A DNA stretch of 25,288 bases, taken from the IMG/VR virus record IMGVR_UViG_3300025362_000036, positions 1-25,288 of that record; one strand, 5' to 3'. Made by a program: the position numbers and the translations under genes. Below, in pieces: positions 4,673-18,718 of this stretch; the stretch's first letter is position 1; the number at the start of each line of letters is the position of its first letter. Source of the DNA: a virus. The notes under the pieces were generated by a model. That model worked only from the letters and a program-made list of their open reading frames with translations. It had not been told where the DNA came from and did no database searches.

Positions 4673-5194
4673 CTATATCGTAGCTGAGATAATTTTGTTA
4701 GATTTCATACTGTTGCATCTACGACAGGCAAGAACCGCATTGGTGGCTATGTGTTCTCCGCCTTTTGATACCGGGATTACGTGGTCTATCGTGCAGTATG
4801 CGGGGTTGTTCTTGTCCCCGTCCTGAAGCATCTTGCATTCGCAGTATTTACATAACCCACGTTGCCCTTCCCACATGGAGGAGATCTCATCTCGGGATAT
4901 TCCCCCGCCTCCGGCCCTCAAACGGTGTCTCCTGTTGACCTGAGCCGCAGCACGTACGCGCTTACCATTAGCAGTAGACCTGTATCTCTTCAACTTCGGT
5001 CTATTATCATAGAGTTCACGGTTCAATTGGGCCGTCATCTCTCTATGTATAATATGGCTACTATTATCGTAGTCGTTAAGCCAAGTCTCTATTGTTTTCC
5101 TGTTAGGCCCGAGTTCAGTGGATATATCAACCTTCGTCATTCCAGCGTTGAATAAAACAGTAGCTTTGTCTCTTAATCCTATTGAGTATTCCAT
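4673..5194 (-). CDS. HNH endonuclease (free-standing homing type), 173 aa
   Basis: The C-terminal part has the full HNH/zinc pattern: C115-x2-C118, then IDH with H138, N152, and C157-x2-C160 followed by NSMKSNK. HNH enzymes of this type cut DNA, and in phages they often spread as selfish homing genes. Residues 18-40 (MTKVDISTELGPNRKTIETWL) resemble a helix-turn-helix, and 65-93 are strongly basic, both fitting site-specific DNA binding. It sits between gpI and the fibre gene with 3 bases before its ATG and a weak Shine-Dalgarno. Nothing around it looks like an intron, and both neighbours have their own reading frames, so a free-standing insertion fits best. The junction with the fibre gene lacks a normal start codon, which may be a scar of the insertion. 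Confidence 0.9.
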   Translation of the reverse strand: MEYSIGLRDKATVLFNAGMTKVDISTELGPNRKTIETWLNDYDNSSHIIHREMTAQLNRELYDNRPKLKRYRSTANGKRVRAAAQVNRRHRLRAGGGGISRDEISSMWEGQRGLCKYCECKMLQDGDKNNPAYCTIDHVIPVSKGGEHIATNAVLACRRCNSMKSNKIISATI

Positions 5195-12184: not shown

Positions 12185-15118
12185 CTATGCAGAGACCTGC
12201 GCAAGCGTATTAAATGCCGCGCCTCTCGCTAATCTCTCAGTCTCTTCATCGGCTTGGTTCTTCAACACTAGCTCAACTTCCTGTGCTGCTTGCATTGGGT
12301 CAGTGCTCGTTATGTTAAACACATTGGAAGGAACAACAGGCTGTTGAGGTGTTGGGAACGGATACGACGCTGCCATATTTCTCTTTGATGCGTTGTTAAT
12401 CAATGCCACGACAACGGCAATGAGTCCAGCGCCTAGAAGTATAGGAAGCAGGACCTTCATCATAGGAGCCATTGCGCCCATTGAGAACATAGCTCCAGCC
12501 GTACCCATCGCACCAGACGTTCCTCGTGCTGCCATAACAGCGGCTGTGTTAGCGCCGAGGGCTACGGGGGCCGCTGCTGTTGATGCGATACCGCGACCGA
12601 CCATGTTCTTTGTTGCCACACCAAGCCGAACAACACTCATCTTGTTGAGTCGTGAAGCGATGAGGTTTTGTCTAGCTATAGATTGTGTCGTTGAAGCAGC
12701 TATGAATGCCCCATTTGCTCCTCTTGTCACTGCGGTGGAGACACCTGTTCTGCCGGGGAATTTAGCTAGTGCGGCCTCTACGTCCTTGCGGCTCCTAACT
12801 GCGGGGAGTCCAGGTATAAGAGCAAGACCTGTACCGCCCGGCTTGGTTGCTGCAAATTTCCCAGCAGTTTCTCCAGTGAGAGGAACTGCCATCGCTGCCC
12901 TGGCCATGCCGGGAACATGAGCAGTGGTCATGGCTGCTCTGTAAGCAACCCTCTCAGCAATCATGATGCTCCACATTCTCTTAACTGACTTGAATAACAC
13001 TCCGCTGCCCATCTTGGTGAGGAGCCATTGGATTGCAGTGCCAACAGCCCAGATACCTTTTGCTGCTTTCCACATCAAACCGAGAGCAATTATCTTGCCG
13101 AGACCACGAGCGAATGCCTCAAAACCTCTCTGTGTATTACCGAACCCTCTAAGCCATGCCATTCCTTTGATGATTCCGAAGAAACCCTTGTAGACAAGCT
13201 TAACGACGGGCCAAATACCGTCAGTAAATATGCGTCCGACTACCTTGAATACAGCGCCAAACCCGTAGCCTATTTTTTCAAGATAGCCACCAGGTTGAAA
13301 GATATCGGTAAATGCTTTTAGCTTTGGATTAAGCCTGCCGGTATAACCTTCTGTACCCTCGTTGCTTGAGTAGTGGGTGAGAGCGTACCACCACTTGTAC
13401 ATTCTCTTTCCTACAGTACCGGACTCGCCAACACTGTCTTTCCACCAAGAAGTGAACTCCTGCGTTCGCTCTTTGAGGTTCCACAGGTTCTTCTTCCAGG
13501 CGTATGCAACCATACCACCAAGCAGAGCAACTCCACCTAGTACCTTGAGTGGTGTTCTTGCAAATGATTTGATGTACGCGAAACCAACTCTATGTGGTTG
13601 TACAGCTAGTGTGGCGTCTGACACGCCCCTGAAGTATCCCATTCTTCTCAGTCGCGTCATGTTGCTCATAATGAGCATGGTCTCTCTACCGACGTCTGCC
13701 ATTCTAGTTCGTAGGATGAAGAAGACACCGGCTGCGATACCACCGAGACCAGAGATGCCGATTATTGCAGCGCCGAGAGCCATCATGGTAGGGATTAGAG
13801 ACATAGCAGTGTCGTTAGACGAGATCATTGCGTTTGTGAATACAACAATCTCAGTTCCGGCCTGGACGAATGGACGGATCATCGTATTGATAGGAGTACC
13901 AAGAGTGGTATTCAGGTTCTCCATTGAAGCTGCCCACTGGTCATTGCTCCACTCCAGTGTTAAGTGTATCTCATCTAGTCGTTCTTTGAGTGATTTGTCT
14001 GCATCGCTGAGAGTAGACGCCCAGTTATCGTTGTACAGTTCCGCGTACTCTTCCTGTGAGTATCTGCCAACAGCCAGGAATCCCTGTCCTTGTCTGATAC
14101 CAAACAGTTCAAGGATAAGTGCATCTATAGCTGAGCCAGCTTGAGCACCTTGTCCACGGGCAATTGCCTGTTGCTTGATGTCTTCCAGCATTGCAGTTGC
14201 GTCTACGAAAGCCGCTCCGATGTTTTGCATGTTGCCAAATTCATCGTATAGAGGAGCTCTTCCAGCAAAGGCTAGTCCAGCCTGAAGCATTTCTTGAACA
14301 TCAGGGTTAGTCGCTCTGGAGTACAGAGTTCTTTGGAGAGTACCAGCACGACCGACCTCAACTCCAGCAGATACAAGTGCCTGTGTCAGTTGAAGTGTTT
14401 GTGCGATGTCTTGTCCGTACGCCCCAGCAGCTTGTCCAGCCACACCGAGTACCTTGGTGAAGTCTGCTGCTGTTGCTTGTCCCTTGTTGGCGAAGTATGC
14501 GAACATGGATGTCATCTCACCTGCGCGTTCCATCTCCATGTTGTACATTCTTGCCGTTACAATCATGTTCTTGGTAGCGTCTCCAAGACCAATCTCAGCA
14601 AGAGTAGCTAAGTTTGCTGCGTTTGCTGTGGCGCTCTTGATCCCTTGTGCGTCTAGGCCAGCGCGAGCGGCTGCTAGAACAGCACTAGAAATCTCAAGGA
14701 CCCCGAACGGGGTTGTCATTGCAAGATCTGATGAGTATTGTTGCAGGTCTTTGATCGTGTCGCGGTATTCCCACAGAACACCCTTGATCTTTGCCCAACT
14801 TGATTCGTAGTTCTTTGCGGCCTTAGTCATGCCGCCGATGAACACCTTTGAGATCAGTGCTTGGCCGACGCGCATAGCCATAAGAGCATAGAACGTGTAT
14901 CGGAACGTGCTTTGTGCTGCGTGCTGCATAGACTTGCTGTACTGTCTACTAGCAACCACAGACGTACGGCCCAGACCTGCTGTTGCAGCGCCTTGGGCAT
15001 TCAGTTGGTGCGTGATGCCTGTAATTTCATTACGAAAGGCACGGGCTTGCTGGGTAGCTGCTGCTCCAGAAAACCGTGCCTGTACGTTAAGTAGTATATT
15101 GCTGCCGATACCAGCCAA
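12185..15118 (-). CDS. tail tape measure protein, 977 aa
   Basis: The longest gene of the window, directly after the chaperone frames, encodes the tape measure that sets tail length and lies inside the tube. Residues about 135-345 match the TP901-type core (TTPFGVLEISSAVLAAARAG, F-A-N-K-G-Q-A-T-A-A-D-F, LQLTQALVSAGVEVGRAGTL). Hydrophobic segments lie at about 441-470, 525-541 and 889-909, which could act in membrane penetration during DNA entry. The start is TTG 15118: AGGAGG lies 6 bases upstream. The ATG at 15123 is in another frame. The C-terminus (NVFNITSTDPMQAAQEVELV) matches tape measure ends that bind the hub. Using the general rule of about 1.5 angstrom per residue, the tail would be near 150 nm; this is an estimate. 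Confidence 0.93.
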   Translation of the reverse strand: MAGIGSNILLNVQARFSGAAATQQARAFRNEITGITHQLNAQGAATAGLGRTSVVASRQYSKSMQHAAQSTFRYTFYALMAMRVGQALISKVFIGGMTKAAKNYESSWAKIKGVLWEYRDTIKDLQQYSSDLAMTTPFGVLEISSAVLAAARAGLDAQGIKSATANAANLATLAEIGLGDATKNMIVTARMYNMEMERAGEMTSMFAYFANKGQATAADFTKVLGVAGQAAGAYGQDIAQTLQLTQALVSAGVEVGRAGTLQRTLYSRATNPDVQEMLQAGLAFAGRAPLYDEFGNMQNIGAAFVDATAMLEDIKQQAIARGQGAQAGSAIDALILELFGIRQGQGFLAVGRYSQEEYAELYNDNWASTLSDADKSLKERLDEIHLTLEWSNDQWAASMENLNTTLGTPINTMIRPFVQAGTEIVVFTNAMISSNDTAMSLIPTMMALGAAIIGISGLGGIAAGVFFILRTRMADVGRETMLIMSNMTRLRRMGYFRGVSDATLAVQPHRVGFAYIKSFARTPLKVLGGVALLGGMVAYAWKKNLWNLKERTQEFTSWWKDSVGESGTVGKRMYKWWYALTHYSSNEGTEGYTGRLNPKLKAFTDIFQPGGYLEKIGYGFGAVFKVVGRIFTDGIWPVVKLVYKGFFGIIKGMAWLRGFGNTQRGFEAFARGLGKIIALGLMWKAAKGIWAVGTAIQWLLTKMGSGVLFKSVKRMWSIMIAERVAYRAAMTTAHVPGMARAAMAVPLTGETAGKFAATKPGGTGLALIPGLPAVRSRKDVEAALAKFPGRTGVSTAVTRGANGAFIAASTTQSIARQNLIASRLNKMSVVRLGVATKNMVGRGIASTAAAPVALGANTAAVMAARGTSGAMGTAGAMFSMGAMAPMMKVLLPILLGAGLIAVVVALINNASKRNMAASYPFPTPQQPVVPSNVFNITSTDPMQAAQEVELVLKNQADEETERLARGAAFNTLAQVSA

Positions 15119-15129: not shown

Positions 15130-15381
15130 TTAGCTATTGTTCATTGTGTCCATCTCGTCTTTCTGAATCTTTGCGTCAGTCAGCAACATGCTGAAGTAGA
15201 TGTTCCTATCTCTTATGGTGAGTGAATCCCAATAGGCTAGGGTCCAGTGGTATTTCTGAAAGATCAGATGCCCCTGGACCTCAAGAAGTCCGTGATCATA
15301 AGGAGGGAGTTTAACGACGAACGGGAGACCCTCAGAGTCGTAGTCTATCCCGCATTCGAAGCGAAAAAATCTGCCACCCAA
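15130..15381 (-). CDS. second tail assembly chaperone frame, made by -1 frameshift
   Basis: This frame of about 77 codons past the slip site overlaps the end of the first chaperone gene and has no ATG near its beginning. It opens only after a TGA at 15382-15384; the first possible initiator is TTG 15381 with no Shine-Dalgarno. It is in the -1 frame relative to the upstream gene and both pass over T TTT TTC at 15363-15369. Slippage there would fuse 257 residues of the first protein to 77 residues encoded here (RFECGIDYDSEGLPFVVKLP... ending DEMDTMNNS), giving a 334-residue product. This G/GT arrangement just before the tape measure is conserved in many tailed phages and helps fold or load the tape measure. 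Confidence 0.82.
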   Translation of the reverse strand: MGGRFFRFECGIDYDSEGLPFVVKLPPYDHGLLEVQGHLIFQKYHWTLAYWDSLTIRDRNIYFSMLLTDAKIQKDEMDTMNNS

Positions 15382-16133
15382 TCAATAGGGTTGGGGAAGA
15401 ACTTGGTGCGGCACTTATCGCACTCGATCTTCTCGGCGTCCGCGATTCCAGGCTTTGTACCATTGTACACACGCTCAATCATCTTGATGTCACTGGCCTT
15501 GAGCTTGTCGAGGTCTCTAAGAGTAGCAGATCCTCTCCAGTCTGGACCGAGTTCTGTGATTGCTTTCAAGATCGATTCAGCTTGAATCGTACCGAACTTA
15601 ACTTCTCCTCCACCTTCAGGGGCAACGAGGTCGAGGTACTGACGATATGACATCAGGCCAATCTTTCCCTGTGAATATGGAGTGCCTTCCTGGTCGAGGG
15701 TGGTGATCGGGGTAGACAGGGTGAACGGGGCAGATCGCTCTTCGTTGTTAAACGGAGATTCGAACCCTTCGTCCCCAAATCGATTGATAACGACATCTGC
15801 GAAGACAAATTCTTCAGTTCTTTGATCTCCACATTTGGGGCATACGTGTTGAACTTCTGGTCCTTTTTCGCCAGCATCAAGCTGTGCGATTGAGAAGAAG
15901 ATGAACTCTACATCGATGTTGTACATGTCGAGAAGCATTTGCTTGGTAGGAGTACCAATGCCAACGATCTCAGTAACGCAGTCAGATAGGAGCCCGATGT
16001 ACATCTCTCTTTTCTTCCCAGAGATGAGGTTGTCTCGGACTTTACGAAGCATTCCTCCGGTAGGCTCTTTGAGCTCAACCAGGTCGCATACTTCACCTTC
16101 ATGGATAATACCGATAGGTAGTTTGACTTGCAT
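15345..16133 (-). CDS. tail assembly chaperone with zinc ribbon, 262 aa
   Basis: Located between tube and tape measure genes, where tail assembly chaperones are found. The N-terminus (VKLPIGIIHEGEVCDLVELK, then EPTGGMLRKVRDN) matches the start of Mu gp41-type tail assembly proteins. Two Cys pairs, C98-x2-C101 (HVCPKCGD) and C238-x2-C241 (IECDKCRTKF), form a probable zinc ribbon; similar Cys pairs occur in T4-like baseplate hub assembly proteins, an alternative identity. The last codons before TAG contain the slippery T TTT TTC, so some ribosomes should continue into the second frame. AGGGAG precedes ATG 16133. The 60-base gap upstream contains a hairpin. Confidence 0.8.
   Translation of the reverse strand: MQVKLPIGIIHEGEVCDLVELKEPTGGMLRKVRDNLISGKKREMYIGLLSDCVTEIVGIGTPTKQMLLDMYNIDVEFIFFSIAQLDAGEKGPEVQHVCPKCGDQRTEEFVFADVVINRFGDEGFESPFNNEERSAPFTLSTPITTLDQEGTPYSQGKIGLMSYRQYLDLVAPEGGGEVKFGTIQAESILKAITELGPDWRGSATLRDLDKLKASDIKMIERVYNGTKPGIADAEKIECDKCRTKFFPNPIDWVADFFASNAG
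15363..15369 (-). promoter_or_regulatory. -1 programmed frameshift site T TTT TTC
   Basis: In the zero frame the codons are GAT TTT TTC; sliding back one base re-pairs both tRNAs on TTT TTT, and reading continues as CGC TTC. The heptamer fits X XXY YYZ. It lies 15 bases before the zero-frame TAG and inside the overlap with the downstream frame, which is open from 12 bases upstream of the heptamer. I did not fold the downstream RNA to look for a stimulating structure. Confidence 0.8.
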
Positions 16134-16193: not shown

Positions 16194-17162
16194 CTAGCTT
16201 TCGATGAAGCCGTCGCACGCCATGACGGTTTCCCGAGTGGCGAGTGCTGGTGAACCCGCGTCGAGGTCACCATAGCTGACTGAAGACGGCCAGCAGTTGA
16301 ACAGCTTAATCGTCTTGAGTGGTTCGTCCGATCCTGGCAGTGCGTCAGGATGGTAATGATTGATCACGAGATTCTTCCGTGTAGGTGCTTGCTTGAAGAT
16401 GCTTGAGCACCAGTCTAGCCACGGTGCGCTCACAAGTCCACTACCGGCGGAGGTAGCCCAAGAACTTACGTTCTCGATGATCCCAGGTGAACCTACGACA
16501 GGAGCAGAACGGAGAGTGATGGACCTAAGTCCAATGTCGCCTCCGTCAGCCGACCAGTCGTTCATAGGCTCGTACCGTGATGGCCAAGCCTGTACGATTG
16601 TCCACTGAGCGATGATCTCTCCACCACGGTTCTTGAGTCTGATGACCCAGTTGCCACGGAAGGCGCAGTTGTTACCACCAACGGTGGAGAACGAATTACC
16701 TGGGCCTTGGATCTTGCCCAGCTTCTGCATCGCCGTGTAGAGGGGGTTGCCCTCGCCAAGCTCTACAACTTGCTGGACAGTGATCTCTGGAAGAGAAAAC
16801 TTGTCCCACAGCTTCTGCACATTGAGTACCGTGCTTTCACGTGACTCGACTATATCCCAGTTCACACCGAGACCTGAGAAGCTGCGTATGTGTGCCAGAA
16901 CCTCTCCGTCGAGTTCTACCTCAAAGAAGAAGTTACCTGCTGGTGTATCACCACATCCTGCGAATGGAGCTTCAGAGAACGTGATGTTTCCGGTATTCAA
17001 CTGGGCAGGGAGATCGATCTTCCCGTTCCTTGTTGATTCAGATACACCGTCAATTGTTTCGATGGTGCGCTCAAGTCCAGTGATTCCCTGGAGTTTGTGC
17101 TCTCCTCCCTCACCAATAATGGCTACGGTGAAGAGACCTTTACGCGCTCTTTGCTCGCCCAT
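16194..17162 (-). CDS. tail tube protein with apparent nested duplication of the tube domain, 322 aa
   Basis: The protein follows the sheath gene with an AGGGAGG before ATG 17162, as expected for the tube. It is about twice the length of T4 gp19-type tubes (about 160 residues). Two segments look like the first half of a tube domain: 10-65 (LQGITGLERTIETIDGV ... LPAQLNTGNITFSEA) and 78-132 (HIRSFSGLGVNWDIVESRES ... FSLPEITVQQV). Two look like the second half: 169-222 (R-G-N-W-V-I-R, then IVQAWPSRYEP) and 262-320 (R-K-N-L-V-I-N, then LFNCWPSSVSYGDLDAG). The order first-first-second-second means one domain sits inside the other. Role as the inner tube under the sheath is well supported by context; the nested fold is my inference. 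Confidence 0.85.
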   Translation of the reverse strand: MGEQRARKGLFTVAIIGEGGEHKLQGITGLERTIETIDGVSESTRNGKIDLPAQLNTGNITFSEAPFAGCGDTPAGNFFFEVELDGEVLAHIRSFSGLGVNWDIVESRESTVLNVQKLWDKFSLPEITVQQVVELGEGNPLYTAMQKLGKIQGPGNSFSTVGGNNCAFRGNWVIRLKNRGGEIIAQWTIVQAWPSRYEPMNDWSADGGDIGLRSITLRSAPVVGSPGIIENVSSWATSAGSGLVSAPWLDWCSSIFKQAPTRKNLVINHYHPDALPGSDEPLKTIKLFNCWPSSVSYGDLDAGSPALATRETVMACDGFIES

Positions 17163-17173
17163 TCGCTACCTCC

Positions 17174-18718
17174 CTAGCTCTCTTGTGCAGACTCAGCCAT
17201 AGGCAGGTCGCCAGTGTTGAACAGTTGCACCTCGAACTCGATGAACTCTGCTGGCTTGACAGGACAGATACCGACTACACAGGTCATGATGCCTTGGTCA
17301 ACCAGTTCGTCAGGGTTCGTGGTGGCGTCACACTTGACGTAAAATGACTCTTCCGGCGTCTTTCCAGCGAACGCTCCGAGGGAGTGGTAGTACATGAGCA
17401 GCATTGCTGCCGTGTCTTCCACCCGTCTCCATGTAGCAGGTGCGTTCAGTTCGAAGACGAATTGGAGCCCACCGTCTTGCAGCGTCTTTTTGATTACATT
17501 GACGAAGCGACGGACGTTGAGGTATCGGAAATGCGTATGCACGTCGAGCGTGCGGACACCCCAAGGCAGGAATCCTTCGAATGGGAACTGCGCGATCACG
17601 TTGATGCCGACGGGGTTGAGGAGTTGTCCTTCACCCAGAGAACACTCGTGAGCAAGCTCGGTGATGGGCAATGGATACTTCACACCGGCTGGAGCAGCCC
17701 ATACACCGTAGTCCCAATCGTTCTGTGCATAGATACCGCACATATATGGGGCAGTTGGCTTGTTCGTGGTTCCTTCTACAACCCAAGGGTAGTAGATGGC
17801 TTCGTTTCCATTTGATTGAAGGTTTTCGGCCACCCATTCGTACGCCTCTTGAGGCGTGTACCCCAGAGGAAGGTCCATCACGTAGACGTCGATGCCCTTG
17901 CGAGCCATCCGCGTGTTCACGTACGTCTGACCGTTTGTCATAACGGCTGCGGCTGTGATTCCTGGGTGAACGATTGACAGACACTCGTTTACTCTATCCA
18001 GTGCATACAGTCCTGTCTCGGAAGCTGGATCGCCATAGTAGTCAGCATCAGCTATGCTTCCAAGGCCATCGAATCCAAGCAGCATGACGTTCGTGCTCGC
18101 CGTAGGCAGAACAGAGTCGTCATCAACTGCAACGGTAACGAGAGTAGATTTCTTTGTGGCGTGATCGTTCATGACGTCTTCCACGAAGAAATCGCTGGTG
18201 CTGTCAAGGCTCATGTCAAGGAATCTTTCAACGACTCGTGTCTTAGTTCCGATTGTTCGGATTACGTACACGTCGAAGTTATCATTCTCGGAGTCAACAT
18301 TAGCAATCTGAATTGACAGATCATTGCCGTACGTTCCGTAGTACTTGGCCGTGAATGTCATGAGGGTCGTAGGTGTTGCCTCACCATCCGTTACTTCAAC
18401 AACAGCCTTAACAGCTGTCAGCGTTGCTTCCTCTGTGATGTCGGAGTAGTGACAGGTTCTCACCACGTACAGGCGTTGTCCACCCATACGGAAGAAGTCT
18501 CGTGCGCCGTATGCGAGGTAGCCATTCACAAAGTCGTTTCCGAACTTGCGAACGAAGTCAGCCCAACTCGTAACGAGCGTTGGCGTGTTCATTGGTCCCC
18601 ACTCAGCAGTTCCAATAAAAGCGGATGCTGCTGAACCTGCTGGTTGCAGCGGCTCGCCGCCCATTGGGACTTCTGAAGTGAAGACTCCTGGGTAACGGTA
18701 TCTTTCGTTTCCGGCCAT
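17174..18718 (-). CDS. tail sheath protein, 514 aa
   Basis: This is the contractile sheath subunit. The N-terminus (YRYPGVFTSEVPMGGEPLQP, then S-A-A-S-A-F-I-G-T-A-E-W-G-P) and the C-terminal half are canonical: GVKYPLPITELAHECSLGEG, LNPVGINVIAQFPFEGFLPW followed by G-V-R-T-L, then Y-L-N-V-R-R-F-V-N-V-I, a V-F-E-L-N-A-P-A-T-W segment, and C-P-V-K-P-A-E-F-I-E-F-E-V near the end. A variable domain is inserted at about 80-230. GGAGGTGACC lies just upstream of ATG 18718, inside the end of the preceding 59-residue gene. Sheath subunits wrap the tube and drive it through the envelope on contraction. Confidence 0.96.
   Translation of the reverse strand: MAGNERYRYPGVFTSEVPMGGEPLQPAGSAASAFIGTAEWGPMNTPTLVTSWADFVRKFGNDFVNGYLAYGARDFFRMGGQRLYVVRTCHYSDITEEATLTAVKAVVEVTDGEATPTTLMTFTAKYYGTYGNDLSIQIANVDSENDNFDVYVIRTIGTKTRVVERFLDMSLDSTSDFFVEDVMNDHATKKSTLVTVAVDDDSVLPTASTNVMLLGFDGLGSIADADYYGDPASETGLYALDRVNECLSIVHPGITAAAVMTNGQTYVNTRMARKGIDVYVMDLPLGYTPQEAYEWVAENLQSNGNEAIYYPWVVEGTTNKPTAPYMCGIYAQNDWDYGVWAAPAGVKYPLPITELAHECSLGEGQLLNPVGINVIAQFPFEGFLPWGVRTLDVHTHFRYLNVRRFVNVIKKTLQDGGLQFVFELNAPATWRRVEDTAAMLLMYYHSLGAFAGKTPEESFYVKCDATTNPDELVDQGIMTCVVGICPVKPAEFIEFEVQLFNTGDLPMAESAQES

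Follow-up and report, generated by a model that had tools for sequence, protein, structure and literature searches.

The open reading frame at 16194-17162 on the minus strand of a 25,288-nucleotide stretch of viral DNA (the window, that is, the whole stretch analysed) encodes a tail tube protein of 322 residues in which, almost certainly, one gp19-like tube domain is interrupted by a second, complete one. The explanation that accounts best for the data as a whole, to which we give a probability of about three in four, is that this nested duplication is the main tube protein of a contractile-tail phage, that each protein fills two ring positions, and that the ring is a trimer whose two kinds of domain are contacted alternately by the sheath. 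If this is true, sheath subunits that contract around a threefold tube need not each face identical tube subunits, and the inner and outer positions would be free to specialise. The nested design is uncommon.

Nested order of the tube domains

The reading frame was confirmed to start with ATG. The PF06841 profile matches its product in two stretches with a total of 88.2 bits (cut-off 28.2), each of which passes the curated cut-off by itself, and TIGR02241 matches with 76 bits (cut-off 62). Residues 77-218 give one unbroken alignment with positions 2-129 of PF06841. The C-terminal 99 residues alone match positions 66-133 (E 1.5e-8), and the N-terminal 76 residues alone match positions 5-55 weakly (E 0.044). 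Because the two ends of the protein match complementary halves of the profile, they represent one split domain with a complete second domain between them. When the outer halves (about 11-69 plus 260-322) are joined, they match PF06841 with an E-value of 9.9e-10; the inner region (about 78-223) alone does so at 4.2e-12. Both results are as expected from the proposal of the first-pass annotation that one tube domain lies inside another, and no fold other than a tube was matched by the inserted region. The outer second half also matches single-domain tubes in a profile comparison (E 2.9e-12). In a sequence comparison with the PDB, residues 73-217 resemble the tube of the Anabaena injection system and residues 249-318 the second half of other tubes.

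These data revise the segment boundaries as follows. The first half of the outer domain (residues 10-70; 16953..17135, minus strand, like all the parts of the protein) contains strands 1-3, placed by the model at residues 11-16, 21-28 and 60-64, and a long loop; it is delimited by the PF06841 match and by the relatives. The complete inner domain (residues 77-222; 16497..16934) is inserted in the outer strand 3-helix loop. A linker (residues 223-244; 16431..16496), recognized in the sequence and as an indel site among the relatives, leads back to the second half of the outer domain (residues 245-320; 16203..16430), which comprises the helix and strands 4-6. At the break point an ordinary tube domain reads GNVTLKKGTFKGD-NKFYEWY. 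The window protein instead reads GNITFSEAPFAG, followed by the insertion, after which the outer domain continues as SAPWLDWCSSIF. Since the break falls between GNITFSEAPFAG and SAPWLDWCSSIF, the insertion is located in the strand 3-helix loop.

The segment order first-first-second-second, originally read from short motifs, was correct, as judged from profiles and relatives. Most of the motifs are also present: GITGL and SFSGL, SEST (41-44) and REST (108-111), RGNWVI (169-174) and RKNLVI (262-267), and WPS (193-195 and 291-293). The L-P-x-I-T signature claimed for both first-half segments, however, is literal only in the second of them (LPEIT, 124-128), the first reading LPAQLNTGNIT. In the window protein taken by itself, the segments of either pair are no more similar than shuffled sequences (P about 0.7), and the motifs alone would be insufficient; therefore, the evidence for nesting is based on profiles and on the family. 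Among the relatives, the second halves resemble each other with z-scores up to 9.1 and the first halves up to 4.5.

Nested tube proteins were found in seven IMG/VR records, 53-100% identical to the window protein; the 100% identical record may represent the same virus. The inner match (profile positions 2-129) and the C-terminal half (about 61-134) are present in all seven, and the N-terminal half (5-55/57) is detected at E 1 or better in four of them (the relatives with an outer first-half match being G001, G002, G005 and G006). A sequence-pattern scan of IMG/VR recovered only the seven known records, scans of genome collections found no relative, and a scan with the cyanobacterial injection-system tube found nothing. 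In tblastn searches of cultured phages with three family members, only C-terminal matches were obtained, to single-domain Streptomyces tubes and to one uncultured phage. The best relatives of the outer second half (the KLFNCWP region) are in the Streptomyces phages GiJojo, BRock and LuckySocke and in related environmental contigs. The tubes of these phages and contigs are single-domain proteins of about 192-211 aa, whereas the window protein has a double domain. LuckySocke, together with Alone3, also provides the best relatives of the window sheath.

The predicted structures are weak, but both contain two full sets of tube elements in the nested order. For the window protein, AlphaFold with seven sequences gave a pLDDT of 53 and a pTM of 0.57; for a 54% identical relative, with 21 rows, the values were 62.9 and 0.65, with the core strands at about 80. 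The rows added for the relative covered the C-terminal half only and are therefore uninformative on the pairing of the halves. An alignment that also included single-domain tubes came out of MAFFT wrongly aligned and was left out of the folding. In both models strands 1-3 are followed by a complete set (strands 1, 2 and 3, helix, strands 4, 5 and 6) and then by a helix and strands 4-6, a strand order that suggests, with modest confidence, two complete sets of tube elements, one nested in the other. The nesting is thus supported by the profiles, by every relative and by the order of the secondary-structure elements in both models. In Foldseek searches of the PDB, the tubes of contractile injection systems rank first with both models (E down to 9.4e-8 with the model of the 54% identical relative).

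Three cysteines, at residues 70, 166 and 290, are invariant in all seven aligned sequences. Cys70 lies at the junction of outer strand 3 and the insertion, Cys166 precedes inner strand 4 and Cys290 is within the KLFNCWP region of the outer domain; a disulfide role is possible. In the inner domain, a strongly conserved stretch, GPGxxxSxVGGxxCxxRGxW (residues 153-172), separates the helix from strand 4. It is longer than its equivalent in ordinary tube domains and is predicted with low confidence.

The tube gene in the tail cluster

The tube gene lies between a sheath gene and the chaperone and tape measure genes. The sheath protein (17174..18718, minus strand, 514 aa) matches phrog_23 (E 9.5e-51) and, over cut-off, PF17482 and PF22671. 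Its gene makes the tail contractile, and it adjoins the tube gene in all seven IMG/VR records. On the other side, a 262-aa protein with CxxC pairs (15345..16133, minus strand) is encoded ahead of the tape measure gene, in the place of a tail assembly chaperone, and shows a weak, sub-cut-off match to PF12322. The tape measure protein (12185..15118, minus strand, 977 aa) has matches in several tape measure families of PHROGs (best E 1.9e-13) and in PF10145. The contractile tail cluster, all on one strand with the tube gene, comprises genes for portal, prohead protease-like protein, capsid, connectors, sheath and tube, followed by the chaperone-position gene and those for tape measure, LysM, hub-like, OB/spike-like, gp25-like, J-like and I-like baseplate proteins. 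The place between sheath and chaperone/tape measure genes is the usual one of the main tube gene, and 16194-17162 is the only recognizable tube gene of this phage fragment. Because of this position, the 322-aa protein is very probably the main tube protein of a phage with a contractile tail.

Near the end of the chaperone-position gene, a TTTTTTC slippery heptamer is present in the X XXY YYZ register (15363-15369, minus strand). A -1 shift at this site enters an 83-aa reading frame (15130-15381), and both the heptamer and the downstream frame are kept at the equivalent position in one relative (L002). Programmed frameshifts in tail assembly chaperones are found in many phages, and this heptamer is a probable example. 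Elsewhere in the tail/baseplate cluster, an HNH endonuclease gene (4673-5194, minus strand; PF01844, E 1.3e-10) is flanked by the I-like baseplate gene and by tail fibre-like genes, and it is possibly a mobile element.

Ring symmetry

We propose that each protein would fill two neighbouring positions of a six-position tube ring, and that three proteins would close the ring, with true threefold and pseudo-sixfold symmetry. The rings would stack around the tape measure protein via the long strand 2-strand 3 loop retained in each domain, as in known tubes. The sheath subunits, which are single and ordinary in size, would then bind inner and outer domains in alternation over the six positions. A sheath-wrapped tube has little space for an extra domain outside its wall and none in its lumen. 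Given this known packing of tube and sheath, each domain most likely has a ring position of its own. Three chains amount to 3 x 322 = 966 residues per ring, compared with 6 x 163 = 978 for T4 gp19. Because three chains thus have the content of six single-domain subunits, and because the published duplicated proteins form lateral trimers, a trimeric ring with pseudo-sixfold symmetry inside a sixfold sheath appears to be the best reading, and a likely one if the protein is both nested and the main tube protein. The published cases are the tube proteins T5 pb6 (PMC5717097) and P74-26 gp93 (PMC10034513), and the hub or connector proteins T5 pb3 (PMC10038345) and the HFTV1 baseplate-tail connector (PMC12494034).

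The linkers between the domains are about 6-10 and 22-26 residues long, which would also let the two domains of a chain be placed in successive rings. The tube would then be built of sixfold rings two layers high, the inner domains forming one ring and the outer domains the next, with a two-ring repeat. Such a stack would be free of any symmetry mismatch with the sixfold sheath, and in the models both domains keep the long loop reaching the next ring. However, no precedent for it was found, and the fused domains of the known tube or hub proteins are neighbours within a single ring (PMC5717097, PMC10034513, PMC12494034); we regard it as unlikely. A different pairing of the halves can also be imagined, in which residues 10-70 pair with 166-222 and residues 78-132 with 262-320, the halves being exchanged between neighbours. 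Profiles cannot separate the pairings from the scores of individual halves, the two ways of joining the halves give similar scores, and the single-domain relatives are most similar to residues 78-132 in their first half and to residues 262-320 in their second. Nevertheless, residues 77-218 make up a tube domain with normal spacing and no break, both in the window protein and in all seven records, and the strand 3-helix loop of this inner domain is canonical and short, so that interleaved domains are barely credible.

The protein might instead be a minor component of the tube end (initiator, adaptor or terminator), with an ordinary single-domain tube gene elsewhere in the genome. The records are all fragments, the largest of 43.5 kb, and there is a match to the CIS5 adaptor family, albeit weak and far below cut-off. 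A location directly between the sheath and chaperone/tape measure genes, in a conserved order, argues against such a role, as does the failure to find a second PF06841 gene in the seven fragment records, and we consider it very improbable.

Known tubes and a second nested case

With T4 gp19, Afp1, Pvc1 and Anabaena All3324 the window protein shares the PF06841/TIGR02241 family, with a PF06841 score over the curated cut-off, and an equivalent place in a contractile tail, its gene lying between sheath and tape measure. Those proteins, however, have one domain of about 140-165 aa per chain and form hexamers, whereas here there are two nested domains per chain. With T5 pb6 it shares a duplicated tube domain in one chain, and three copies per ring are expected here too. 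In pb6, two subdomains in tandem are joined by a linker and an Ig-like domain is present in addition, and the T5 tail is non-contractile (PMC5717097). In the window protein, by contrast, the half matches flank an unbroken inner domain, the Ig domain is absent, and the sheath gene adjoins. P74-26 gp93 likewise has two similar tube domains and a pseudo-hexameric ring (PMC10034513), but its N-terminal and C-terminal domains are in tandem with a linker, in a non-contractile tail. The recorded threefold tubes, those of T5, phiCbK and P74-26, are all non-contractile (PMC5717097, PMC10034513). The tandem rather than nested order in the tubes of T5 and P74-26 is a point against the trimeric reading.

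It had been suggested earlier that a contractile example has not been described. This agrees with the open-access literature searched (most subscription journals lie outside that scope), in which neither a contractile trimeric tube nor nested tube domains were found. The paper on phage JS1, which has a curved contractile tail, mentions no duplicated tube. The phiCbK tube was considered as a nested case, but its PDB relative 8xan, judged by eye from the strand order in the sequence only, looks tandem. Phage G was rejected as a case of a fused tube, its two tube candidates, gp179 and gp180, being separate genes.

A likewise nested protein was found in Salinibacter phage M1EM-1 (L101), where the product of MF580955.1 9579-10415 is annotated as phage major tail protein. 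Its residues 79-216 match positions 33-176 of phrog_1407, its first 67 residues match 23-96 and its end 123-164; the joined outer halves match 23-164 (E 4e-7). PF06199 covers residues 79-202. The same nested major tail protein is present in M8CR30-2, M8CR30-4, L107 and L108, and no earlier description of this nesting was found. In contrast to the PF06841 tube beside a sheath gene in the window, it belongs to another family (PF06199/phrog_1407), and no sheath gene is recognized in the M1EM-1 cluster by annotation and gene sizes. From the sequence, the insertion appears to lie in the strand 3-helix loop, as in the window protein. Because the M1EM-1 protein is nested and no sequence relation between it and the window family can be detected, nested duplication appears to have originated at least twice, at an equivalent loop. 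The two cases suggest how the identical subunits of a ring could become fused in pairs with no need of a long tandem linker. On balance we favour the broader view that a threefold, pseudo-sixfold tube runs in a sixfold sheath, that nesting evolved at least twice at one loop, and that fusion of neighbouring ring subunits is favoured at the strand 3-helix loop. M1EM-1 is cultured on Salinibacter ruber M1, and the question of symmetry is therefore directly testable. In a viral fold search the M1EM-1 protein was the one match that aligned with the model over the whole length (357 columns, TMq 0.45), above the values typical of single-domain tubes (0.29-0.35), which lends weak, model-based support to a similar two-domain arrangement.
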